A stretch of 35,687 bases of DNA from a virus, in the IMG/VR virus record IMGVR_UViG_3300015263_000124, positions 1-35,687 of that record; one strand, written 5' to 3'. This document shows, piece after piece, positions 1 through 34,194 of the stretch; positions within the stretch are counted from its first letter, which is position 1; each line of letters begins with the position of its first letter. The translations under genes and the position numbers were made by a program. Under the pieces are notes generated by a model. The model saw only the letters and a program-made list of their open reading frames with translations. It was not told the origin of the DNA and did no database searches.

Positions 1-1
1 A

Positions 2-607
2 GAAATGCAACATGAGGATTATGATCCTCATCTATCACTAGCTCTTCTAGCTGGTGAAGTGACACAGAAACAAGTGGATGACTATATCTCTGGTAAGGAT
101 AAATCTATCAAGAAGATTAGGCATACATTCAAACAGGGAAACTACGCATGTCAATATGGTGCTGGACCTCCAAGACTTGCCCTCACTGCTGATATTTCAG
201 TGAAGGAGGCAGAGAAGGTTCATAAGACATATTGGGAAAAGAATTGGGCAATTAAGGAAGTTGCCAAGCATCAGGAAATAGTTACTATCAGCGGACAGAT
301 GTGGTTGAAGAATCCGATTAATGGTTTTTTTTACTCCTTGCGTTCTGAGAAAGATATTTTCTCCACACTTGTTCAGGGTAGTGCTTCCTATGTATTTGAT
401 AGGTGGGTGCAAATATTCCGTCAGAAACGGTCACAGCTCACCGCACAGTTCCATGACGAGGTGGTCCTGTGTCTCCGTAAGGGTAATCGAGAGAAGGCCA
501 TCCAGCTCCTCCGTGGGGCGATTAAGGAACTAAACGAAGAATTGCAACTCAATCGTGAATTGGATATTGATATTCAGTTTGGAGATAGGTACAGTGACAT
601 TCATTAA
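2..607 (+). CDS. DNA polymerase, family A (C-terminal part, cut by window edge)
   Basis: C-terminal palm and fingers of a T7/Pol I-type replicative DNA polymerase. The reading frame is open to the left edge, so the N-terminus lies outside the window. Visible motifs are the O-helix (motif B) around IRHTFKQGNYACQYGAG, where K/R and Y residues bind the incoming dNTP and template, and motif C FHDE, with the catalytic Asp, about 50 residues from the end. Motif A, with the first catalytic Asp, is not inside the window. Whether this protein has its own 3'-5' exonuclease domain cannot be seen, but a separate DnaQ-like exonuclease lies at 3557-4330. Its 3' end overlaps the next small gene. It is the first gene of the replication block seen here. 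Family assignment is firm. Confidence 0.93.
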   Translation, partial: EMQHEDYDPHLSLALLAGEVTQKQVDDYISGKDKSIKKIRHTFKQGNYACQYGAGPPRLALTADISVKEAEKVHKTYWEKNWAIKEVAKHQEIVTISGQMWLKNPINGFFYSLRSEKDIFSTLVQGSASYVFDRWVQIFRQKRSQLTAQFHDEVVLCLRKGNREKAIQLLRGAIKELNEELQLNRELDIDIQFGDRYSDIH

Positions 608-752
608 TTATCAGAATATAAATGAGGTGCCTATTTATAGGTTTCCAGTGGTTAATTTTGACCACCCTCAGATTAAAATGATCGTTGAAGCTTATACCAA
701 ACGTGGTATGGGTATCGGAATTAATTACGGCAAGAATTTGGAGAAAAACTAA
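594..752 (+). CDS. Small hypothetical protein between polymerase and SSB genes
   Basis: A 52-residue protein beginning at GTG 594, inside the last codons of the polymerase gene, preceded by GGAGATAGG as ribosome binding site. It ends in TAA at 750-752, which overlaps the ATG of the SSB gene (TAATG). An in-frame TTG at 555 would give a longer form but has no clear binding site. The protein has a central aromatic and hydrophobic stretch, IYRFPVVNFDHPQ, and a basic C-terminus. I do not recognise a family. Perfect tiling between two essential replication genes and shared stop/start signals support a real gene. Confidence 0.6.
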   Translation: MTFINYQNINEVPIYRFPVVNFDHPQIKMIVEAYTKRGMGIGINYGKNLEKN

Positions 753-1507
753 TGGGTTTGAACGCTAAGAAGAAAGAATTTAATGGTGGTGGTAAGAAGG
801 CTGATCCGATTGATGCAGGTGCTTATCCCGCTCGACTGGTACAGATTATCGACCTCGGTGTACAGGAACAGCAGCCTTTCAAGGGCGAGCCTAAGCCTCC
901 TGCGCAGGAACTGATGACCACATATGAACTCGTAGATGAGTTTATGAAGGATGAAGATGGTGAAGATATTGAAGATAAGCCACGTTGGCAGTCTGAGACA
1001 TTTGTTCTCCACAACCTTGCCTCAGATATGGCAAAATCTACTAAACGTTACACCGCTCTTGATCCTAATCTTGAGCATGACGGTGATTGGACTGAGCTTG
1101 TTGGCTCCCCTGTAATGGTCACTATCACTAAGGATCAGGGTAAGGGTAAGAACGCTGATAAGGTGTATAACAACATCTCTGGCACTTCCTCTATGCGAGC
1201 TAAGGAAGCTGCAAAGCTGCCTGAACTTAAGAACCCTGCTAAGATTTTCGATCAGTCGGATATTTCCACTGTTGACATTTTCTTTACACTTCCTCAGTGG
1301 ATTCAGGACAAGATCAAGTCTGGTCTTGAGTTTGAAGGCTCTGAAATGGAATACGCTATCAACAACTATAAGCAGAAGGACTCTGACGAAGATGCCAAGC
1401 AGAAAGGCAAAGGCCGGGCTAAGAAGCAGGAGAAGGCTGCTGAACCCGATGATAGTGACGAAGGCGATGTCGGAAACGAAAAAGCAGACAACGGAGAAGA
1501 CTGGTAA
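752..1507 (+). CDS. Single-stranded DNA-binding protein, phage type with acidic C-terminal tail
   Basis: A 251-residue protein likely to coat single-stranded DNA at the replication fork, in the role of T7 gp2.5. The body (residues about 20-200) has the beta-rich look of phage SSB/DUF669-like proteins. It starts GLNAKKKEF and contains DAGAYPARLVQIIDLG near residue 22. The last 45 residues are a basic KGKGRAKKQEK patch followed by a strongly acidic tail ending GEDW. An acidic tail closing with an aromatic residue is the feature gp2.5-type SSBs use to contact polymerase and helicase. It lies directly after the polymerase gene. The family call rests on architecture and context rather than a single catalytic motif. 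Confidence 0.75.
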   Translation: MGLNAKKKEFNGGGKKADPIDAGAYPARLVQIIDLGVQEQQPFKGEPKPPAQELMTTYELVDEFMKDEDGEDIEDKPRWQSETFVLHNLASDMAKSTKRYTALDPNLEHDGDWTELVGSPVMVTITKDQGKGKNADKVYNNISGTSSMRAKEAAKLPELKNPAKIFDQSDISTVDIFFTLPQWIQDKIKSGLEFEGSEMEYAINNYKQKDSDEDAKQKGKGRAKKQEKAAEPDDSDEGDVGNEKADNGEDW

Positions 1508-1809
1508 TGAATGAGAAAGACTTAATCAAGGGCCTAGATTTTGTAACATGCGTTAATGGTAACTTTGAAGAATATGGTGTATCGGAGGGTCAGCTTGCTT
1601 TTGTAGCTGGCCACCGTTCCCTTCCTATAAATGAGGATGATCCCTATCTTCAACGTATCCATTTTCTAATTCATCCTCTCAATGAAGATGAAACAATTAA
1701 CTTCACTATTCTCCTAGTAGTTGATGGTCGGTCACTTGCCAAGGTGAGTGAAGAAGAACAGGAACGACTTACGGAGAAGCTTCGTGAAGACACTGACAGC
1801 ATTAATTGA
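1507..1809 (+). CDS. Hypothetical 100-residue protein in replication operon
   Basis: The ATG overlaps the SSB stop codon (TAATG), so translational coupling is likely. The 100-residue protein has a mixed beta-rich middle (RIHFLIHPLNEDETINFTILLVV) and a charged helical C-terminus (SEEEQERLTEKLRED). Its last 26 bases overlap the start of the exonuclease gene. I do not recognise a family, and no metal-binding or catalytic motif stands out. Its position between SSB and exonuclease suggests a replication accessory role, which is inference only. Confidence 0.75.
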   Translation: MNEKDLIKGLDFVTCVNGNFEEYGVSEGQLAFVAGHRSLPINEDDPYLQRIHFLIHPLNEDETINFTILLVVDGRSLAKVSEEEQERLTEKLREDTDSIN

Positions 1810-2692
1810 TGCAGATGTACTTCGCTATGAGATTGGATTTTGTGGCGAGTACAAAGAACTAAATGAGGAAACTGGTGAAGAGGAGTTTAAGGTTAGGGAA
1901 TTTGATTTCGTAGCCGAACTCCTTGACGGCAGAGTGAAAGGAATTATCGCAGATGTTGCAGACTATTTCGACATTGATCAGTCAGATATTAAACCAGTTC
2001 TCTACCTCACAGGCTCAGAAACAAGTACAAAAATCATCAATAGATCAAAAAGATTTCTTGATGAGCCTCTACTTCTTTTGGCTCCGCCAATACGAGAATC
2101 CATTGCAGTCACTAAGCCTTATAAGGGCACACGAGCGGGAACAAAACCTTTCCATTATGAAAACCTCACGGCGTACATTATTGGAACATATGAATTCCGC
2201 GTGTCGAATGGGCTTGAAGCCGACGATCTTATCTGCATGGATCAATTCTCAGCTTTGGGAGATAATGATACTATCATTTGCACTAGAGACAAAGATTTAC
2301 GTATGTGTCCCGGCTGGCATTACGGTTGGGAATGTGGCAAACAGCCTTCGTTCGGACCCACGCTCGTGGACAATAGGGGACAAATCACCCTCACCCCGAA
2401 GGGCATCAAAGGCACAGGACTTAAATTCTTCTTTTCACAAATGCTTACAGGAGATACAGTTGACAACATCCCCGGATGCGCCAAGATTGGACCAGCAAAA
2501 GCCTTCGCCATACTTGAAGGATGCAACACACGACGAGATCATGAACGAGCTGTTATCGAGGCATATAAGCAAGCATACGGTGACAAGTACAAAGACATGC
2601 TTGAGGAGCAATCCAAGCTTTTGTGGATGATTAGAGAACTTAACGAGGACGGAAGTCCTGTACATTATGAATGGAAGTTTGATGCTGACTGA
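1784..2692 (+). CDS. 5'-3' exonuclease (FEN/T7 gp6-like)
   Basis: A 302-residue nuclease of the FEN/PIN superfamily, expected to remove RNA primers, resect DNA ends and degrade host DNA, as T7 gp6 does. Acidic metal-binding motifs are in the expected order: LIDAD (D9, D11), LEADD (E145-D148), CTRDKD (D169, D171) and TGDTVDNIPG (D224, D227), followed by GPAKA of the helix-turn-helix. I chose GTG 1784 because GGAG lies 7 bases upstream and the first beta strand (LTALIDAD) then falls in its usual place. An upstream in-frame GTG at 1748 lacks a good site. The start overlaps the previous gene by 26 bases. Confidence in function is high. Confidence 0.88.
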   Translation: MKTLTALIDADVLRYEIGFCGEYKELNEETGEEEFKVREFDFVAELLDGRVKGIIADVADYFDIDQSDIKPVLYLTGSETSTKIINRSKRFLDEPLLLLAPPIRESIAVTKPYKGTRAGTKPFHYENLTAYIIGTYEFRVSNGLEADDLICMDQFSALGDNDTIICTRDKDLRMCPGWHYGWECGKQPSFGPTLVDNRGQITLTPKGIKGTGLKFFFSQMLTGDTVDNIPGCAKIGPAKAFAILEGCNTRRDHERAVIEAYKQAYGDKYKDMLEEQSKLLWMIRELNEDGSPVHYEWKFDAD

Positions 2693-2873
2693 TACTGAGG
2701 TTAATGAAGTTTGGGAAATTGCCCAAAAAGATGCACAATCAGATTTCTTTTCTGCTAGGCCAACTTTTGATAAAAAGTTTATCGGTTATAACCCATATAA
2801 CTATGGGACTGAAAAATATGAAGAGTATGAATGTGCTTATGAACACTACATCATGGATTATTTGGGGTATTAA
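2682..2873 (+). CDS. Small acidic hypothetical protein
   Basis: A 63-residue acidic, tyrosine-rich protein (NPYNYGTEKYEEYECAYEHYIMDYLGY at the end) whose TAA overlaps the ATG of the HNH gene. ATG 2682 is preceded by GGAAG. An in-frame ATG at 2667 would add five residues and overlaps the exonuclease end more. No known motif is visible. The many Tyr, Glu and Asp residues and small size resemble early phage host-interaction or DNA-mimic proteins, but that is only a compositional remark. Confidence 0.65.
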   Translation: MLTDTEVNEVWEIAQKDAQSDFFSARPTFDKKFIGYNPYNYGTEKYEEYECAYEHYIMDYLGY

Positions 2874-3301
2874 TGGCAGGTAGAATTGGTGGCCCTAAGA
2901 CACGCAACTCTGGTCGTTGGACTGAGGCACAATTCACTTCTTTCATCAAAGGAAATCTTAGGCGTATCACTTCCAAGTGGGGACCTATTCAAGATGTTCT
3001 AAAGGAAGCTCGTGTTAGACGAGGCTTTTATATCTGTAATGATTGTAAGGAAGAAGTGCCAGCCTCCACCAAAGATGAGAATGGTAAGCGTGTTAAGAAT
3101 GCGATAGTGGATCATATTGATCCTATCATCGATCCTGATGTGGGTTGGGTGAGTTGGGACAACACTATCGAACGGATGTTCTGTGAGAAAGAGGGGCTTC
3201 AAGTCCTTTGCTATGAATGTCACAAGAAAAAGACTGACGATGAAAAGGCTCGGGCTAAGGCTCGTCGAGCCGCTGATAAGGAAATTTTGAATGACGAATG
3301 A
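2873..3301 (+). CDS. HNH endonuclease, zinc-finger type
   Basis: A 142-residue nuclease of the HNH/endonuclease VII-like group. Two zinc-binding pairs frame the active site: C55-x2-C58 and C113-x2-C116 with H117. The catalytic core is VDHIDPI (D80, H81), followed by a WDNTIE segment with N97, and the C-terminus is a basic helix. A basic N-terminus (RIGGPKTRNSGRW) could bind DNA. It sits within the replication operon, not inside another gene, so it may be a resolvase-like recombination nuclease or a free-standing homing nuclease. The sequence does not decide. ATG overlaps the previous stop (TAATG). Confidence 0.8.
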   Translation: MAGRIGGPKTRNSGRWTEAQFTSFIKGNLRRITSKWGPIQDVLKEARVRRGFYICNDCKEEVPASTKDENGKRVKNAIVDHIDPIIDPDVGWVSWDNTIERMFCEKEGLQVLCYECHKKKTDDEKARAKARRAADKEILNDE

Positions 3302-3557
3302 TAATTACGCTACAGAAGTTAGTGGTTATTCCACCTTCCAAGATATTGAACATAAGATGCTTCGTGCTTGGAACCAGTATAATGTAATGAGTAATCTGCG
3401 TGAGAATAAGATGGATGGTGTTGCTATGGAATACCTTAGTGCCCTTCCCAAGACTGACATGGTTGGCCTACAGATCATGATTGAATACATCAAGGCTAAG
3501 GGCTACGAAGAGACTAAGCGAGAAATCATCTCAGAAGAAATTGGACTTGCAGCTTAA
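3291..3557 (+). CDS. Hypothetical 88-residue helical protein
   Basis: Starts inside the end of the HNH gene and stops at TAA 3555-3557, sharing an A with the next ATG. The 88 residues are predicted mostly helical by composition (FQDIEHKMLRAWNQYNVM, MEYLSALPKTDMVGLQIMIEYIKAKG). No catalytic or metal motif is visible and I do not recognise the family. Being wedged between two nucleases with overlapping ends suggests co-translation with them. Confidence 0.7.
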   Translation: MTNDNYATEVSGYSTFQDIEHKMLRAWNQYNVMSNLRENKMDGVAMEYLSALPKTDMVGLQIMIEYIKAKGYEETKREIISEEIGLAA

Positions 3558-4330
3558 TGGCTAGAGTTCTTATCCTAGATATTGAAACAGCCCCTAATAT
3601 TGCCTATGTATGGCGATATTTCAAAGAGAATGTAGGGGCAAAGCAGGTGATTGAGAATGGCTATATGCTTTCCTTCGCTGCTAAGTGGCTAGGAGAGGAT
3701 AAAATCTTCTACCACGATATTGAACATCAACATGAAAAGGATATGCTAGAATATCTTCATCCGTTGCTTGATGAAGCCGATATCACTGTAGCTCATAATG
3801 GTGATGGATTTGATATGCCACATATTCAGGGACGTTTCCTAATGCATGGCATGAAGCCCCCTGCCCCATATAAACAGATTGATACAGTGAAGGTAGCTCG
3901 TAAGGAGTTTAATTTTCCATCCAACTCTCTTGAATATCTCAGTAATGTTCTTGACCTTGATGTTAAGAAAGGTGGACATAAGAAGTTTCCGGGCTTTGAG
4001 CTTTGGCTTGGTGTCCTCCGTAACGATCCTGAGGCATGGGCAGAGATGAAGGAATATAATATCGATGATATTCGTGCTCTTGAACAGCTTTACCTTCGCT
4101 TCCGTCCCTTCATGCGTTTCCATCCTAATGTGGGTGTATTCGAAGATGGTGAGGAAGTTGTGTGTACTAAGTGTGGTGGCAAGCATCTGCAGAAGCGAGG
4201 CTTTGCTCACACTAATGTGGGCCGTTTCCAACGCTATCAGTGCAATGACTGCGGTGGTTGGAGCCGTGGTCGATACAACCTTCGTAAGAAGGATGAGATG
4301 AAACATATCGTAGCTAATGTGGTGAACTAA
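3557..4330 (+). CDS. DnaQ-like 3'-5' exonuclease with C-terminal zinc ribbon
   Basis: A 257-residue RNase H-fold exonuclease. Exo I is ILDIET (D8, E10), Exo II is VAHNGDGFD (N81, D86), and Exo III is YNIDDIRALE (Y167, D171). This is the DEDDy arrangement of proofreading and YprB-type exonucleases. After residue 200 comes a four-cysteine zinc ribbon (C203, C206, C229, C232) with basic linkers, probably a nucleic-acid contact. It may supply proofreading in trans to the family A polymerase or process recombination intermediates. The start overlaps the previous stop and the end overlaps the next start (TAATG at both), so it is embedded in the operon. Confidence 0.82.
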   Translation: MARVLILDIETAPNIAYVWRYFKENVGAKQVIENGYMLSFAAKWLGEDKIFYHDIEHQHEKDMLEYLHPLLDEADITVAHNGDGFDMPHIQGRFLMHGMKPPAPYKQIDTVKVARKEFNFPSNSLEYLSNVLDLDVKKGGHKKFPGFELWLGVLRNDPEAWAEMKEYNIDDIRALEQLYLRFRPFMRFHPNVGVFEDGEEVVCTKCGGKHLQKRGFAHTNVGRFQRYQCNDCGGWSRGRYNLRKKDEMKHIVANVVN

Positions 4331-4593
4331 TGAATGAAGATGAAATTTTTGAAGTTGTTCGAAAAGAGTTACGTTATCAAGAAAAACAAACTTTTTATGA
4401 AAATGGATATGTAAGGGGTGGCCTCTCTGAGGGAGAGGTTCTCCTAGCTATTGATAAGCTTGTGAATGATGCCAAGAATGTTTGGTATTTGGATAGTCCA
4501 CCCCATCTCGCTGCACGACACCTCATTCGTAAGATTGCAGCTCTGTCAATAAGGATGTGTATGGATAAAATTGGTATGCCGGAAAGGTTTTAA
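4330..4593 (+). CDS. Hypothetical 87-residue protein upstream of MazG
   Basis: ATG overlaps the exonuclease stop (TAATG). The protein is mixed helical, with LSEGEVLLAIDKLVNDAKNVW in the middle and HLAARHLIRKIAALSIRMCMDKIG at the end. It has no transmembrane segment and no recognisable catalytic residues. It ends two bases before the preferred TTG start of the MazG-like gene. I do not recognise the family. Confidence 0.7.
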   Translation: MNEDEIFEVVRKELRYQEKQTFYENGYVRGGLSEGEVLLAIDKLVNDAKNVWYLDSPPHLAARHLIRKIAALSIRMCMDKIGMPERF

Positions 4594-4594
4594 A

Positions 4595-4924
4595 TTGTCT
4601 GACGAATTTGGATTTGATGAGTATCAAGAACGAGCATGGGAATTCCGTGCTTGGCCTGATACAGAGGTGGGGAATATGTACCCCGTCCTCGGACTGGCTG
4701 AGGAAGCTGGTGAAGTTGTTGGTAAGGTGGCTAAGGCCACACGTAAGGGCGTACCTGTAGATGTAGAAGCTCTCAAGAAAGAGCTTGGAGACGTGCTGTG
4801 GCAGCTTTCCGCTGTTGCCACCACCTATGACCTAGACCTGCTCGATATCGCTCTCAGTAACCTCCAGAAGCTGCAAGACAGGGATAACCGTGGAGTGATT
4901 GTAGGAGAAGGTGATGAACGATAA
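4595..4924 (+). CDS. MazG-like nucleoside triphosphate pyrophosphohydrolase
   Basis: A 109-residue all-alpha NTP pyrophosphohydrolase of the MazG superfamily, which splits (d)NTPs or ppGpp-like nucleotides to the monophosphate plus pyrophosphate. The metal-binding signature EExxE...ExxD is clear: LAEEAGEVVG, then about 20 residues later KKELGDVLWQL. The N-terminal FDEYQERAWEFRAWP is typical of single-domain phage MazG proteins. I prefer TTG 4595, with AAAGG 7 bases upstream and directly after the previous stop. An in-frame TTG at 4571 would overlap the upstream gene. Together with the following diphosphohydrolase, HAD, ThyX and RNR genes it forms a nucleotide-pool module. Confidence 0.85.
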   Translation: MSDEFGFDEYQERAWEFRAWPDTEVGNMYPVLGLAEEAGEVVGKVAKATRKGVPVDVEALKKELGDVLWQLSAVATTYDLDLLDIALSNLQKLQDRDNRGVIVGEGDER

Positions 4925-5261
4925 GGTTGGACGTAAGGATGATGGTGGTAAGGTGAGGCTCGACCTCATCCCGCCAGAACTGATTTTCGCTGTAGGACAG
5001 ATTCTCACATTCGGAGCTGTTAAGTATGCAGACCGTAATTGGGAACAAGGAATGAAGTGGGGACGAGTATTCGGTGCCCTTATGCGCCATATGTGGTGCT
5101 GGTGGGGAGGTAAAGGCCCTACTACCAAAAGCTTCCTATTTGGTTCTACAGATGACGAGACACAATATTCACACTTATGGCACGCTGCATGTTGCATTGC
5201 GTTCCTAATTGCTTATGAAGAACGAAACATTGGGGAGGATGATCGTGCGAATAGCTCTTGA
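4914..5261 (+). CDS. MazZ-like dATP/dGTP diphosphohydrolase (DUF5664 family)
   Basis: A 115-residue protein with the hallmark blocks of the dATP/dGTP diphosphohydrolase family: DDGGKVRLDLIPPELI, LTFGAVKYADRNW, FGALMRHMWCWW and SHLWHAACCIAFLIAYEER. The family includes MazZ of cyanophage S-2L, which clears dGTP/dATP for 2-aminoadenine genomes, but many members occur in phages without that chemistry. ATG 4914 follows AGGAG at a 6-base spacing. GTG 4911 is possible but too close. It overlaps the MazG gene end. No PurZ or DatZ is visible in this window, so base modification cannot be claimed. Confidence 0.82.
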   Translation: MNDKVGRKDDGGKVRLDLIPPELIFAVGQILTFGAVKYADRNWEQGMKWGRVFGALMRHMWCWWGGKGPTTKSFLFGSTDDETQYSHLWHAACCIAFLIAYEERNIGEDDRANSS

Positions 5262-5574
5262 TTATGATGAGACATATACACTTGATCCCACCTTCTGGCG
5301 TGCATTCATTCACACTTCACTAGAGGCTGGACATGATGTACGTATAGTGACAGCTCGATCACCAACACATGACAATATTGACCATATTATGATCGACAGA
5401 TATTATGATATCCCTGTTATCTATTGCGATGGTGTAGCTAAGAGGTTTGTTTGCCATCATTTCGAAGCTTGGGACCCTGATATTTGGATTGATGATAAAC
5501 CACAAGCAGTAGATAATAACTCTAGTGCAACTAGGGAATGGTTGGAAGAGTGGAGGGCAACTCGTGCAAGCTGA
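5245..5574 (+). CDS. HAD-superfamily phosphatase, probably nucleotidase-like
   Basis: A compact 109-residue haloacid-dehalogenase-fold protein. Motif I is LDYDETYT (DxDxT, nucleophile and acid/base Asp), motif II is IVTAR (Thr), a lysine lies in VAKRF, and motif IV is WIDDKP (metal-binding Asp pair). Phage HADs of this size act as nucleotidases or polynucleotide phosphatases. The neighbours (MazG, MazZ-like, ThyX, RNR) point to a deoxynucleotide substrate, but that is inference. GTG 5245 has GGGGAGG ending 6 bases upstream. ATG 5239 directly abuts that site and is less likely. Confidence 0.75.
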   Translation: MRIALDYDETYTLDPTFWRAFIHTSLEAGHDVRIVTARSPTHDNIDHIMIDRYYDIPVIYCDGVAKRFVCHHFEAWDPDIWIDDKPQAVDNNSSATREWLEEWRATRAS

Positions 5575-6265
5575 ATATATTAATCATATGGGTGACGACA
5601 TCACCGTAGTGAATGCAGCTAGGGTGAGTATGGATAAGGAAAGTGAGTGGGGGAAGACTATTAGTGAAGTTAATCTTAATCACAAGAAAAGAGATGAGTG
5701 GGAAAAACTTGATACCAACATCTCCTTTGAAGATTGGAATCTACTATCCTACCTCTCCAAACATAATCATTTCACACCATTCACTCATTGTACAATCACC
5801 CTTCGTGAAACAGTTCCTATCTTCGTAGCTCGTCAACGATTTAAGCATATGGTTGGTTTCACTTACAATGAAGTGAGTAGACGATATGTAGATGATACCC
5901 CTAAGTTCTATACGCCTGATGTTTGGCGTAAGAGGGCTGAGAATGTTAAGCAAGGTAGTAGTGATGATGAGGTTGATTTTCCCGAGACTGTATCTGACTC
6001 ATACAGAAGTTTGATTTATAATGCCTATACAACATATACTGAAATGTTGGCTGATGGTGTAGCTCCTGAGCAAGCTCGTATGGTGTTGCCTCAATCAATG
6101 ATGACCTCCTACTACGTTACAGGAAGCCTATATGCCTTTGCCCGTGCTTATCTACTACGAATTGATCCACATGCTCAGAAAGAAATTCGAGATTTGGCAG
6201 AGCAATGGGATAAGATAATTCGTCCTCTTTATCCTGAGAGTTGGAGTGCTCTTGTAGATGCCTAA
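5564..6265 (+). CDS. thyX: Flavin-dependent thymidylate synthase ThyX
   Basis: Makes dTMP from dUMP using FAD, NADPH and methylene-tetrahydrofolate. The 233-residue protein has the ThyX core: NAARVSM near the start, FVARQRFKHMVGFTYNEVSRRY for the signature, ARMVLPQSMMTSYYVTGSL, and LRIDPHAQKEIRDLA at the C-terminus. In the signature the usual RHRxxSxNExSxRY reads KHMVGFTYNEVSRRY, so the first Arg is Lys, the second is Met and the nucleotide-binding Ser is Thr. GTG 5564, with GGAGG 7 bases upstream, fits the usual N-terminus better than GTG 5525. Together with the downstream RNR it gives the phage its own dTTP supply. Confidence 0.92.
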   Translation: MQAEYINHMGDDITVVNAARVSMDKESEWGKTISEVNLNHKKRDEWEKLDTNISFEDWNLLSYLSKHNHFTPFTHCTITLRETVPIFVARQRFKHMVGFTYNEVSRRYVDDTPKFYTPDVWRKRAENVKQGSSDDEVDFPETVSDSYRSLIYNAYTTYTEMLADGVAPEQARMVLPQSMMTSYYVTGSLYAFARAYLLRIDPHAQKEIRDLAEQWDKIIRPLYPESWSALVDA

Positions 6266-6380
6266 GAAGATGGAAGAAATACGTAAGGCTGTGCAGCGTT
6301 CTGGTAAATCCAAGGATGCTGCATATGCTATCGCTCAAGCTAAATACAACAAAATGAAAAAGCGAAAGAAGAATAAATGA
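6258..6380 (+). CDS. Very small lysine-rich protein between thyX and RNR genes
   Basis: A 40-residue basic peptide beginning at ATG 6258, inside the last codons of thyX, and ending in TGA 6378-6380, which overlaps the RNR start (ATGA). It reads MPKKMEEIRKAVQRSGKSKD and then AAYAIAQAKYNKMKKRKKNK. Tiny phage proteins with the pattern KSK(D/Q)AAYAIAxA are common and of unknown role. The tight overlaps on both sides support translation. The highly basic C-terminus could bind nucleic acid. Confidence 0.65.
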   Translation: MPKKMEEIRKAVQRSGKSKDAAYAIAQAKYNKMKKRKKNK

Positions 6381-8230
6381 ACCTAGAAAATAACGTCCTA
6401 TCAGATATTGTAGTGTATTCCAAGTATGCCCGCTATATGAAGGACTTTAAACGACGAGAGACGTGGGAAGAGATTTGTTGGCGTAATGCAGATATGCATA
6501 TGAGGAAGTATCCAAAGCTCTCAAAGGCCATCTATGACGCCTACAACAACTATGTAATCCCTAAGAAAATCCTTCCTTCTATGAGGTCTCTCCAGTTTGG
6601 AGGAAAAGCTATTGACCGTAATCCAGCTCGTATTTATAATTGCGCTTATTTGCCAATTAGCCATGTCGATGCATTTAGCGAAACAATGTTTCTACTGCTC
6701 GGAGGGACTGGGGTCGGCTATTCTGTACAATATAGGCATGTTAATAGTCTTCCTGACGTTGTGGGGCCTAAACGTCGTACACGCAGGTACGTAATTAGTG
6801 ATTCAATTGAAGGCTGGTCCGATGCTGTTAAGGTGTTGGTCGAAGCCTATTTTTATAACAAACTACAACCGGTATTTGATTATGAAGACATTCGCGAAAA
6901 AGGTGCTGAGCTTGTTACATCTGGAGGAAAAGCCCCCGGCCCTGACCCTCTACGAGTATGCTTGGCTCAGATTGAAGGAATACTTCACGGGGCTGTCGGA
7001 CGTAGACTTAGCAGTTTGGAAGCTCATGACATTCAATGTTATCTTGCTGACGCTGTACTTAGTGGGGGTATTCGTCGGGCTGCTATGATCAGTCTATTCT
7101 CCCCCGAAGATGATGAAATGATGGAGTGTAAAAGTGGAAGTTGGTGGGAACTTAATCCGCAACGGGGACGAGCTAATAATTCCGTTATCCTCCTCCGAGG
7201 CGAAACAACTCAGGAAGAGTTTGACGCCATCTGGAAAAGGGTGCGTAATAGTGGAGCGGGAGAACCCGGCATTTACTGGACTAATAATCTCGATTGGGGG
7301 ACGAACCCCTGCTGTGAGATTGCTCTTAAACCCTTCCAATTCTGTAACCTAGTAGAGATTAACGCCTCTACAGTTGAGGATCAGGAAGACTTTAAACTAC
7401 GTGCAGGTGCAGCAGCATTCATTGCTACGCTACAAGCTTCTTATACAGACTTCCACTATCTACGTCCTGTATGGCGTTCTACAACGGAAGAAGATGCTCT
7501 GATTGGTGTTGGCATTACAGGTATTGCATCAAATAAGATTGACCCTTCATGGCTTCGTTCTACCACTGATGTAGTGATTGGTACTAACGCCATGGTAGCA
7601 GATATGATCGGAATTAAACATGCGGCTCGAACCACTACTATCAAGCCTTCTGGTACTAGTTCTCTTGTCGTGGGCAGCTCTAGTGGCATTCACGCTTATC
7701 ATAATGATTATTACCTGAGACGTATGAGGTTTGGAAAGAATGAACCAATTTGGGAATATCTTTCAGGACAGTTCCCCGAACTTTGTGAAGATTGTAAAGA
7801 GAAACCTAAGACACAGGGCATCCTTACAATTCCTCAGAAGGCTGGAGAGGGAGCTGCTATCCGAACAGAAAGTCCGATGGACCTCCTTGAGCGTGTCAGA
7901 ACATATAATGAGGAATGGGTGGCAAAGGGACATCTCGAAGGAGATAATCACAACAACGTCTCTTGCACAATCTCACTCAAAGATGATGAGTGGGACGATG
8001 TTGGAGAATGGATGTGGGATAACAGAGCCTCTTATAATGGCATCTCCGTCTTGCCCTACGACGGGGGTACTTACGTTCAAGCACCTTTCGAAGACACTAC
8101 AATGGCTGATTACGAACGGCTATCCTCGAACATCAAGGATATTGACCTCTCAAGAGTTGTCGAAGAGGAGGATACCACTAACCTGATGGATCAGGCAGCA
8201 TGTGCTGGTAATAACTGTGAAGTAGTATAA
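6377..8230 (+). CDS. nrdJ: Adenosylcobalamin-dependent (class II) ribonucleotide reductase, monomeric type
   Basis: Reduces ribonucleotides to deoxyribonucleotides with a B12-generated thiyl radical. The 617-residue protein shows N310-P-C312-C-E314 (radical Cys with Asn and Glu), C323 eleven residues later, and the partner C89 in IYNCAYLP. The spacing equals C408/C419/C119 of Lactobacillus RTPR. The end AACAGNNCEVV holds the shuttle pair C609/C614 (CX4C) as in RTPR C731/C736. GGTGVGYSVQ and KPSGTSSLVVGSSSG complete the fold. It is shorter than the usual 700-740 residues. The residue after the radical Cys is Cys rather than the common Gly. The gene is the last of the + strand block and ends just before a terminator. 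Confidence 0.92.
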   Translation: MNLENNVLSDIVVYSKYARYMKDFKRRETWEEICWRNADMHMRKYPKLSKAIYDAYNNYVIPKKILPSMRSLQFGGKAIDRNPARIYNCAYLPISHVDAFSETMFLLLGGTGVGYSVQYRHVNSLPDVVGPKRRTRRYVISDSIEGWSDAVKVLVEAYFYNKLQPVFDYEDIREKGAELVTSGGKAPGPDPLRVCLAQIEGILHGAVGRRLSSLEAHDIQCYLADAVLSGGIRRAAMISLFSPEDDEMMECKSGSWWELNPQRGRANNSVILLRGETTQEEFDAIWKRVRNSGAGEPGIYWTNNLDWGTNPCCEIALKPFQFCNLVEINASTVEDQEDFKLRAGAAAFIATLQASYTDFHYLRPVWRSTTEEDALIGVGITGIASNKIDPSWLRSTTDVVIGTNAMVADMIGIKHAARTTTIKPSGTSSLVVGSSSGIHAYHNDYYLRRMRFGKNEPIWEYLSGQFPELCEDCKEKPKTQGILTIPQKAGEGAAIRTESPMDLLERVRTYNEEWVAKGHLEGDNHNNVSCTISLKDDEWDDVGEWMWDNRASYNGISVLPYDGGTYVQAPFEDTTMADYERLSSNIKDIDLSRVVEEEDTTNLMDQAACAGNNCEVV

Positions 8231-24399: not shown

Positions 24400-24477
24400 T
24401 GGTCAGAAAGGTTGGATTTGAACCAACGACTTCTGGTTTCCAAAACCAGCACTCTTACCTGACTGAGCTACTCTCTG
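24400..24477 (-). tRNA. tRNA-Pro (anticodon UGG) with encoded CCA
   Basis: A full cloverleaf reads on the - strand. The acceptor CAGAGAG pairs with CTTTCTG (one G-U). The D-stem is GCTC/GAGT. The anticodon stem CTGGT/ACCAG carries loop TTTGGAA with anticodon TGG. The variable loop is AAGTC and the T-stem GTTGG/CCAAC has loop TTCAAAT. Discriminator A73 and C1-G72 are the bacterial proline identity elements, and CCA is encoded at 24402-24400. The body is 75 nt plus CCA. It lies inside the late structural operon between the portal-linked small gene and the scaffold gene, so it is likely processed from the late transcript. Confidence 0.93.
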
Positions 24478-31937: not shown

Positions 31938-32580
31938 TAATTACTCTTTCTGGTTTGTTATTACGCTGTGCGTCTCGAATAAACTGATTTGTTAAACGCA
32001 AGGAAAGACTTTAGGCGGACTAATACCGGATTTATAAAATCCCCTACCGAAACCTTGTTTCCCTATTTTCCAAATGTCCGTTGTTGAAACTACGTTTCAA
32101 TATTGATTTGAAAAATCAACAATTTTCTAAGAAAAATTTTTTGAAAACACGTAATTTCTCCTAGAGATTAAGCTGTTGTGGTGCATTAAGGAGCACACCC
32201 CCCACAACCCCCGGTGCCCGGGTTAGTTGTATTGCAACCTATCGGTTGTTTTCGTGTGGGTTGAATGCATTTTATTCAATGAAATCAATGCCTTACGTCA
32301 GTTTTATTATTAAACGCTTTGCGTCTCGTATTAACAACACATAACAATATGTATGTGTCTATATGTATATACCTATATCCATACATGTTTGTGACAACGA
32401 GTGTGAAATAAATGTTGACATTGATTATATGTTGATGTATGCGCGCATATGTGTTCATTATATTGGCAAGGGGTTGATGTTCATAGTTATGGATAGTGAC
32501 ACACTTATTCATCAATGATATCAACAGCTTATAACTTTTATTCATTCAATGTGCATTTTTCTGTTGCAATCTTTATTTGG
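31938..32580. other. AT-rich gene-free region with clustered short palindromes (candidate origin / divergent control region)
   Basis: No credible gene on either strand. Perfect inverted repeats: GGATTT/AAATCC (32028-32042), TTGAAAC/GTTTCAA (32084-32100) and TTGATTT/AAATCAA (32103-32119), all with three-base loops. AATTTTC with a one-base-bulged partner (32121-32138) also has a three-base loop. GTTGTGG/CCACAAC lies at about 32174-32207, CCCGG/CCGGG follows, then TTGAAT/ATTCAA (32261-32279), ATGTATG/CATACAT (32349-32386) and the self-complementary TATGCGCGCATA (32438-32449). Density, AT bias and position between divergent operons suit a replication origin, a genome-end region or a control region. 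Confidence 0.55.
31964..32333 (-). repeat. Two copies of a GAGACGC-containing repeat, with a weaker third at 34722
   Basis: On the - strand, GTTTATTCGAGACGCACAGCG (31984-31964) and GTTAATACGAGACGCAAAGCG (32333-32313) agree at 18 of 21 bases and lie about 350 bases apart in the same orientation. A degenerate copy, TTTGAGACGCAATG, sits near 34733-34720, in the leader of an early gene. The first copy is about 27 bases upstream of the late operon's first gene. They could be promoters for a phage polymerase, operators or replication sites. Confidence 0.55.
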
Positions 32581-33284
32581 TTATGTCATCTTCTAATCAT
32601 CGAAACGGACAAGGCAATCGCCTCCCCGATTTGGTCTTAGGGCTGAGGCCTTTCGTACTGACAGGCTCGCCCCTTTGGTGAGAAAAATAGTATTAGTCTG
32701 GATATACCCTATTGACTAGGGGCGTGCCTTGTGACTATATGCAGGAATACATAGGCAAGCGTTCATTTATGAGCGTAAGCTGTTGGTAATGGATTAGTCA
32801 GGCTCACCCGACTTTATGCTAGGCATAGGTCGGCGGATGGAAGAACTATTTACCTTTAGCTTGCGTGTTGTGGATGATAGACAGCTAGAAGTCCGTTAGC
32901 TATAATGCCTCATAAGCTGGAGATGACGACCAGCATAAACGGAGACGTGCGCCCTGTGTTCTGGATTGGGGCTTAATCCATCCAGCTAGACTAGACTAGG
33001 AGACTAGCAATCTCAATCTAGCGTCACGTGAGAGACGTATTGTGTCCGGGAGACTGAACCTCAAACGGATAGCACAATTATTAGGCGTCAATGCGGTGGA
33101 ATTCCGATTGCCTAATGGGAACTGACATGGTGACATATAGTCATGTCGGGCCGTAGATGGTTTGATCACTCGCATAGTGAAAGGGTGTGTAGTCGGTGTC
33201 CTAGCCGCTATATGTCTATTCATCTATTAGCTGTGATGATATCAAACTTGCTGGCTTAGCTTAGCGATAGCATCAAGGCAATAA
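32581..33284 (+). ncRNA. Candidate large structured RNA or long structured early leader
   Basis: About 700 bases without a gene that pair extensively. Helices seen by eye: 32616-20/27-31, 32640-50/64-72, 32694-98/714-18, 32725-32/49-57, 32759-65/70-76, 32808-19/23-33, 32893-97/938-42 enclosing 32916-20/30-34, 32961-69/78-85, 32996-33003/11-21, 33022-27/32-37 with a GTGA tetraloop, 33039-48/66-78 (10 bp, three-base bulge), 33080-93/101-116, 33122-34/40-49, 33166-70/76-80 and 33190-96/205-210. GTTTGAT 33160-66 with ATCAAAC 33241-47 closes the 3' part. Helices from 33022 to 33116 abut with one-base gaps. The GNRA loop favours the + strand. There is no tRNA, tmRNA or group I core. No covariation data. 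Confidence 0.5.
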
Positions 33285-33563
33285 ATGAAAACTCCTCCAT
33301 TGCTCATAGATTGTAACGATGCTATCACTTGGCTAAACCAAATAAAGGCTAATACAATGATGAGCGTAAGCGAAGCAATGCAACGTGCCAATCACAATGG
33401 ATTGATGATTAAGCGTATCAATCCAGCATCAACACAATGGATTGTGACACTTGTCGAATGGACAAGGGAACAATGCCATAAATTCCGTTACATCACGGAT
33501 GATCTTGAAGATGCAGTAATTGAAGGTGCAAAAATGCGCCGCGATGCTGCAAAATATGTTTGA
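33285..33563 (+). CDS. Early hypothetical protein (first gene of + strand early block)
   Basis: A 92-residue protein starting at ATG 33285, with AAGG about 8 bases upstream. It is mixed alpha/beta (LIDCNDAITWLNQIKANTMMSVSEAMQRA, then STQWIVTLVEWTREQCHKFRYITDDLEDAVIEGAKMRRDAA). No motif is recognised. It is the first gene after the structured gene-free region. A strong hairpin covers its stop codon. As the leading early gene it may act against the host, but nothing in the sequence shows how. Confidence 0.75.
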   Translation: MKTPPLLIDCNDAITWLNQIKANTMMSVSEAMQRANHNGLMIKRINPASTQWIVTLVEWTREQCHKFRYITDDLEDAVIEGAKMRRDAAKYV

Positions 33564-33609
33564 CATATCATTCTAATGACTGTTAAGGCAGTCATTATTG
33601 AGGTATGTC
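33562..33609 (+). promoter_or_regulatory. Two-tier intergenic hairpin between early genes
   Basis: GACATA (33562-33567) pairs with TATGTC (33604-33609), and inside it TAATGACTG (33574-33582) pairs perfectly with CAGTCATTA (33589-33597) around loop TTAAGG. The outer stem begins inside the stop codon of the upstream gene. The hairpin ends 11 bases before the AGGAG site of the next gene. There is no U-tract, so a processing site or translation control element is more likely than a terminator. Confidence 0.65.
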
Positions 33610-33633: not shown

Positions 33634-34194
33634 ATGAAAACTCTCAAGGAAATCAACTCCTCTATCTCTAGCATTGCTAAGAGTGAGGGAACCCTGAAAG
33701 CTACGCTTGGCACGCTGAGCCGTGACATGCTGGAATATGTCAAGGAAAGCGGTGACATTGATGCTGTCAACCGCCTTATGAAGGTTCTCACCCCTAAGAA
33801 CTATGAAGGGGCAAAGAAGTTCTTCAATCATCATCTTGCGTACACTTGGGAAACCAAGGGCGGTCGCTTTGGCAGCAAGAGTAAGAACAAGGACGTTGTT
33901 GCTAAGAAGCTTAAGGAACTGAATGCGTTCCTTGCTGATGGTGAAGCAACTATCTGGACTTGGCTTGCTGAACAGGACAATCGTGATCCGGTTGCCAAGC
34001 CGAAGGAATACGAAAAGAAGATTGAGGCACTGGTCAAGAAGGCTATCGATGACAAGGAAGAAAACATTCCTGTGTCGGCTGTGATCCGTGCTTGCATCAA
34101 GGCCGGTTGCTCACTAGGCGAAATCATGGAAGCTCTCATGCCTGATGAAAAGAAGGATGAGCAGGCTAACGTGAAGAAACTGGCTGCTGCTTAA
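33634..34194 (+). CDS. Early hypothetical protein, 186 residues
   Basis: Starts at ATG 33634, 8 bases after AGGAG; a TTG at 33628 is less well placed. The protein is charged and helical: MKTLKEINSSISSIAKSEG, ATLGTLSRDMLEYVKESGDIDAVNRLMKVL, a central YEGAKKFFNHHLAYTWE, KKLKELNAFLADGEATIWTWLAEQ, and an acidic/basic C-terminus. Codon use is clean (many AAG, GCT, CTT), consistent with strong early expression. I do not recognise a domain. It is the longest of the early genes in the window. Confidence 0.82.
   Translation: MKTLKEINSSISSIAKSEGTLKATLGTLSRDMLEYVKESGDIDAVNRLMKVLTPKNYEGAKKFFNHHLAYTWETKGGRFGSKSKNKDVVAKKLKELNAFLADGEATIWTWLAEQDNRDPVAKPKEYEKKIEALVKKAIDDKEENIPVSAVIRACIKAGCSLGEIMEALMPDEKKDEQANVKKLAAA

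Follow-up and report, generated by a model that had tools for sequence, protein, structure and literature searches.

A likely large structured RNA heading the early genes of a Zobellviridae-type podovirus

Here, I report that a gene-free region ahead of the early genes in the viral contig IMGVR_UViG_3300015263_000124 (35,687 bases, the whole of which is called the window below) likely encodes a large structured early-region RNA. A sequence-only reading had proposed a large structured RNA in this place, and that proposal finds support, while its boundaries, unit length and tertiary details need revision. The window RNA may be regarded as the positional counterpart of the large early RNAs of alphaproteobacterial Autographiviridae and other Zobellviridae. 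On a judgement that is evenly balanced, it is a structured leader of great length heading the early operon, and processing may set part of it free as a stable RNA. Rightward transcription by the host RNA polymerase would place it among the first phage RNAs, a strong internal promoter (32878-32906) giving about 430 nt and an upstream start perhaps about 780 nt. The product would be a succession of stable arms that stops at the first early gene's ribosome-binding site; as a leader it would control elongation, translation or both in the early operon, and in the long form its closing helix, P1, would cover the AAAGG Shine-Dalgarno. In this scheme I infer transcription, the start site, the folding of the window RNA as modelled, and function.

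Judging from its terminase, which is 71-72% identical to that of Pseudomonas phage PA11 and its relatives, the window phage is a Zobellviridae-type podovirus. Early and DNA-metabolism genes lie at either end of the window (1-8230 and from 33357) and run rightward, with leftward late genes between them. A second contig, G001 (IMGVR_UViG_3300015263_000027; 43,010 bases), comes from the same phage, being 100% identical over window positions 1-32231 and continuing 10.8 kb past window position 1; as it stops at 32231, it does not cover the RNA region.

The span originally put forward, 32581-33284, is indeed gene-free and foldable, the longest open reading frames of the region being of 41 aa (plus strand) and 75 aa (minus strand) and neither matching a PHROG. 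Its boundaries were wrong, the best supported domain being 32570-33348, and the downstream gene starts at 33357 rather than at 33285: alignments with homologues of its product begin at the ATG at 33357, which is preceded by AAAGG. The domain and the early genes that follow it are these:

32570-33348, plus strand: proposed complete structured RNA domain, 779 nt (z -4.91, 0/60 dinucleotide shuffles).
33357-33563, plus strand: first gene after the RNA, for a 68-aa early protein of the TDDLEDA family (tblastn to Paso, SI01 and RHEph phages).
33562-33609, plus strand: bipartite hairpin separating the first early gene from the second, a candidate RNase III site (from the sequence; local z about -4 to -5).
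33634-34194, plus strand: gene for a 186-aa early protein homologous to CW02 gp58 and, more distantly, to PHROG 1448 (pairwise and profile-profile comparison).

Homologues of the 68-aa protein occur in Rhizobium and Stappia phages (tblastn) and at 12 loci in viral contigs. The 186-aa family is related to PHROG 1448 of Autographiviridae (pairwise E 8e-6; profile-profile probability 89%, E 2e-6) and, besides CW02 gp58, to other Zobellviridae proteins; the AlphaFold model of the 186-aa protein is all-helical, with a mean pLDDT of 57, too poor for a fold search.

Extension of the domain to the first early gene exposes at its ends a 12-bp inverted repeat plus one G-U (CTTTATTTGGTT, 32571-32582, with AACCAAATAAAG, 33336-33347). 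When compared with dinucleotide shuffles, folding energy is only mildly low over 32570-33290, which is about the span first proposed (z -1.93, 0/20), and reaches the value listed above over the full domain. The signal is concentrated at the 3' side (last ~430 nt, z -3.2; core 32910-33348, z -2.5; upstream half, z -1.25), and z is negative in all same-length segments of relatives. The minus strand of the domain scores about equally (z -4.82), so that folding energy alone gives no strand; the plus-strand assignment comes from context, namely the direction of the early genes, the promoters and the relatives. G+C content is 0.45-0.48 in the region versus 0.32-0.38 immediately upstream.

These figures bear on a plainer reading, according to which the region is nothing more than regulatory DNA, with promoters, repeats that bind proteins, or sites of replication or packaging, and its fold is incidental. 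A repeated element, CAATGATATCAACnnCTTATA, several promoter-like sites, an upstream half that folds little above chance and a minus strand that folds as well all speak in its favour; it is set against the z of the full domain, the raised G+C and the strong covariation in syntenic relatives described below, and I consider it unlikely.

Within the domain, the following helices are predicted:

32570-32582, plus strand: 5' strand of closing helix P1, UCUUUAUUUGGUU, pairing with 33336-33348 (P 0.96).
33336-33348, plus strand: 3' strand of P1, AACCAAAUAAAGG, with AAAGG inside, the likely Shine-Dalgarno of the next gene.
32763-32877, plus strand: long arm whose 25 bp form three stacks (P 0.62-0.88).
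33022-33117, plus strand: three adjacent hairpins already noticed in the sequence-only reading, 33022-33037 (P 0.2-0.4), 33039-33078 (P 0.7-0.8) and 33079-33117 (P 0.35-0.9).
33122-33149, plus strand: 10-bp hairpin (P 0.75).
33174-33227, plus strand: long hairpin of stacked pieces (P 0.83-0.98).
33256-33336, plus strand: 3'-terminal hairpin arm, GAUAGCAUC/GAUGCUAUC with flanking stacks (P 0.96-1.00).

The most reliable arms are 33256-33336, 33174-33227, 33122-33149 and 32763-32877, and it is through the very stable hairpin 33256-33336 that the RNA runs to about 33348. P1 is moderately significant: since 2/120 shuffles give an end-to-end helix as strong, it is suggestive and not proof. The helix letters quoted earlier are all in place (CGTC..GACG at 33022-33037, TTGTG../..CACAA at 33039-33078, ATTAGGC../..GCCTAAT at 33080-33116), as are GTTTGAT at 33160-66 and ATCAAAC at 33241-47, which had been offered as a closing pair of the 3' part. 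Three finer details are likewise present as letters and are indistinguishable from chance, namely the GTGA (GNRA) loop at 33022-33037, whose stem has P about 0.2-0.4, the pseudoknot of TAGATG (33154-59) with CATCTA (33221-26), which do stand in crossing order, and the competing pair of CGCCCC (32668-73) with GGGGCG (32719-24).

The length of the transcript depends on where it starts, for which two predicted sites come into consideration:

32415-32443, plus strand: weak sigma-70-like promoter, TTGACA-17-TATGCG, a possible start of a longer transcript (9/12 match).
32878-32906, plus strand: predicted internal sigma-70-like promoter, TAGACA-17-TATAAT (11/12 match, promoter scan).
32913-33348, plus strand: 3' core RNA of about 436 nt, if the internal promoter is the start (folding z -2.5 to -3.2).

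A score of 11/12 is reached in 3/500 shuffles of the RNA region and in 15/500 over the whole intergenic region; the site at 32415-32443 fails the stricter promoter scan. In several relatives, TTGACA-type promoters lie 430-650 nt before the first gene. The internal promoter, the promoters of relatives and the folding signal in the last ~430 nt suggest that the main transcript may be the shorter 3' core, about 32913-33348, as in relatives, a longer form arising from the upstream start. An RNA transcribed from the internal promoter would lack P1, which would therefore belong to the longer form only. Hence, of the single structured unit of ~700 nt envisaged at first, the large RNA holds and the single unit is uncertain, for the strong internal promoter and the distribution of the folding signal point to a 3' core of ~430 nt.

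Much of the evidence for an RNA comes from relatives at the same locus. The contigs L068, L069 and L070 match the window in the order of large non-coding RNA, 68-aa gene and PHROG 1448 gene, and related gene orders are found in Autographiviridae of Rhizobium, Agrobacterium and Stappia. In most inspected loci of both families, 0.8-2.5 kb of non-coding sequence precedes the 68-aa or PHROG 1448-like genes; in other Zobellviridae (CW02, T5S1, T4S1, VPMCC5), 1-1.7 kb immediately precedes the 186-aa gene's homologue, with no sequence similarity to the window RNA. The window likewise has a large non-coding stretch directly before its early gene(s), together with the shared upstream block.

Covariation was found in two groups. 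Among six Y1_20-type phages (the Rhizobium phages named being Y1_20, TM34, RHEph27, Y48 and X3_9), the consensus fold has 166 pairs, with 92.3% of cells paired and 49 doubly changed pairs (0/500 shuffles), and among five phages of Cuernavacavirus (TM33, RHEph02, RHEph09, I38 and N37) it has 174 pairs, with 94.6% paired and 40 doubly changed (0/500 shuffles); the folds being derived from the tested alignments, these percentages are inflated, and related sequences can exceed such shuffles. In the Y1_20 group, pairing falls to 30-39% when partners are slid by 1-3 columns as a control. The number of compensated changes lies far above both controls, and in Cuernavacavirus whole arms are rewritten with pairing kept, e.g. 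the last arm before the gene. This covariation, which belongs to the two groups of relatives and not to the window, supports the conclusion that the RNA at the relatives' syntenic locus is structured. A closing helix of 8 bp, with one compensated pair, reaches the start of the first gene in Y1_20 and L076 as well. Column shuffles were beaten by the consensus fold of the Zobellviridae pair T4S1/VPMCC5 (z -8.1 and -5.1) and not by that of the pair L069/L086 (z -0.3), all of these z-values being rough because column shuffling does not keep dinucleotides.

The RNAs of the Y1_20 type and of Cuernavacavirus resemble that of the window in their locus before the PHROG 1448 gene, their length, their internal promoter-like sites and their many helices, whereas their bodies cannot be aligned with it. 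Covariance models of the 3' domains of the two groups (R1 and R2) match only within their own group and find nothing in the window, which points to a conserved locus with fast-changing RNAs rather than to one alignable family. A prophage search in bacterial genomes gave one weak locus only. Two further matches, Vibrio phage 1.214.O and the contigs L088-L090, were rejected, for they have another gene neighbourhood and a number of matches about as expected by chance.

Direct sequence similarity between the window and a relative is found at the 5' side:

32274-32296, plus strand: weak first copy of the upstream element, CAATGAAATCAATGCCTTACGT (fourth-ranked HMM match, E 1.8).
32513-32533, plus strand: upstream element, CAATGATATCAACAGCTTATA, common to Paso and Stappia phage SI01 (sequence comparison).
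32551-32615, plus strand: continuation of the shared block, GTGCATTTTTCTGTTGCAATC ... CATCGAAACGGACAAGGC, with the start of the RNA (BLASTN to Paso).

A block of ~100 nt (32513-32609) is common to the window and Rhizobium phage Paso (BLASTN E 3e-8, against the whole window), and runs from the upstream element (CAATGATATCAACAGCTTATA ... GTGCATTTTTCTGTTGCAATC) into the RNA start (TCTAATCATCGAAACGG). An HMM of this 5' element, built from seven relatives with the window left out, has its top match in the 35.7-kb window at 32515-32621 (E 0.08; next 1.4). Stappia phage SI01 carries two copies of the upstream element. Paso is thus like the window in the upstream block and in the first ~40 nt of the RNA, and unlike it in the body downstream, which is not detectably similar; for the RNA body beyond the 5' block, no sequence relative was detected in the viral contigs, phages and plasmids searched. 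Agrobacterium phage Alfirin has two blocks in common with Paso.

In the 5' non-coding part of Autographiviridae relatives (L068, L069, L070, L072, L081, L086, L057/L065, L058/L066, L062 and L064), there are conserved DNA motifs, namely TTTCGTGCGGGTATCTAA, CCTCCCTATTAGGAATA, TAGATA-type repeats and CTAACCGCTMCGGCRAC; the window shows no clear instance of any of them. A motif search across the regions returned mostly left-end DNA repeats of Autographiviridae, likewise absent from the window.

Among large RNAs, ROOL RNA assembles into a homo-oligomeric nanocage. GOLLD and ROOL are large many-armed RNAs of phages and prophages, of unknown function, frequently located close to tRNA islands, and the level of GOLLD goes up at lysis (PMC12286853). 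The window RNA is similarly large, many-armed and phage-encoded; it differs in heading early genes away from any tRNA island and in matching no covariance model. The initial impression that it is neither GOLLD nor ROOL is borne out by the Rfam covariance models of both, without a match up to E 10. Rfam 15 as a whole gives nothing at the gathering threshold in the region and only irrelevant chance matches up to E <= 10; tmRNA, group I intron, OLE and HEARO models do not match, nor does ARAGORN find a tmRNA, and at 18 relatives' loci Rfam detects nothing apart from a tRNA. At this sensitivity the RNA is a new class relative to Rfam. A divergent GOLLD, ROOL, OLE or other catalogued large RNA, suggested by the phage origin, the size of about 440-780 nt and the many arms, is therefore highly improbable given these searches and the lack of an adjoining tRNA island, the sole tRNA being 8 kb away. 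That tRNA gene, a tRNA-Pro (TGG), lies on the minus strand at 24400-24477, among structural genes. A literature search, with most subscription journals outside its reach, found no paper on such RNAs in these phages.

As to what the RNA would do, the main rival to a leader is a free-standing, abundant early non-coding RNA cut out by processing and acting in trans, e.g. as a scaffold or decoy that helps to take over the host or to counter its defences. Its size and number of helices are far above those of known leader regulators, the sequence turns over fast in relatives with structure retained, and the always adjoining PHROG 1448-like protein is a possible partner. Cleavage could occur at the hairpin 33562-33609 (GACATA/TATGTC outside, AATGACTG/CAGTCATT inside), which from its letters is a candidate RNase III processing site. 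Against release, the promoter/terminator scan finds nothing resembling a terminator between the RNA and the gene behind it, and the 3' end falls on the first gene's Shine-Dalgarno, which is what a leader would show; release with action in trans seems to me possible, though the less favoured account.

A long early leader could also act in cis on RNA polymerase. The put antitermination RNA of phage HK022 is a structured early leader located after an early promoter, of about 65-70 nt with two hairpins. The window RNA is comparable as a structured early leader and differs in being ~440-780 nt long. Antitermination of this kind in a much larger format would fit the place of the RNA in relatives, where it follows early promoter-like sites and precedes the early operon; Rfam, however, finds no likeness to a known antitermination motif, and known cis-antiterminator RNAs are far shorter, making this quite unlikely.

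Returning to the leader heading the early operon, a wider proposal can be made, albeit tentatively and with rather less than even confidence: there may be an undescribed class, or several convergent classes, of early RNAs, large and structured (400-800 nt), that head the early operons of alphaproteobacterial Autographiviridae and Zobellviridae, change fast in sequence with structure and position kept, and act with the PHROG 1448 protein in host take-over, the window being a divergent member. Known phage RNAs that are both large and structured are very few, and what they do is poorly understood; the syntenic large RNAs of relatives, for which there is covariation, are also missing from Rfam. 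They are present in many cultured Rhizobium and Agrobacterium phages, in a constant position next to a conserved protein whose function is unknown, and probably belong to the first transcripts of infection, so that expression, deletion and pull-down experiments should be straightforward in ordinary laboratory hosts.

Two observations concern single relatives. In Alfirin, several tiny hypothetical genes are annotated inside the presumed RNA region (L056:4668-5413), and these are probably not real. In T4S1-k141_776450 (L048:2478-4000) and Vibrio virus VPMCC5 (L052:2503-3982), there is a common conserved non-coding region of 1.5 kb that folds and lies before the homologue of the 186-aa gene, which makes it a candidate giant RNA on its own.
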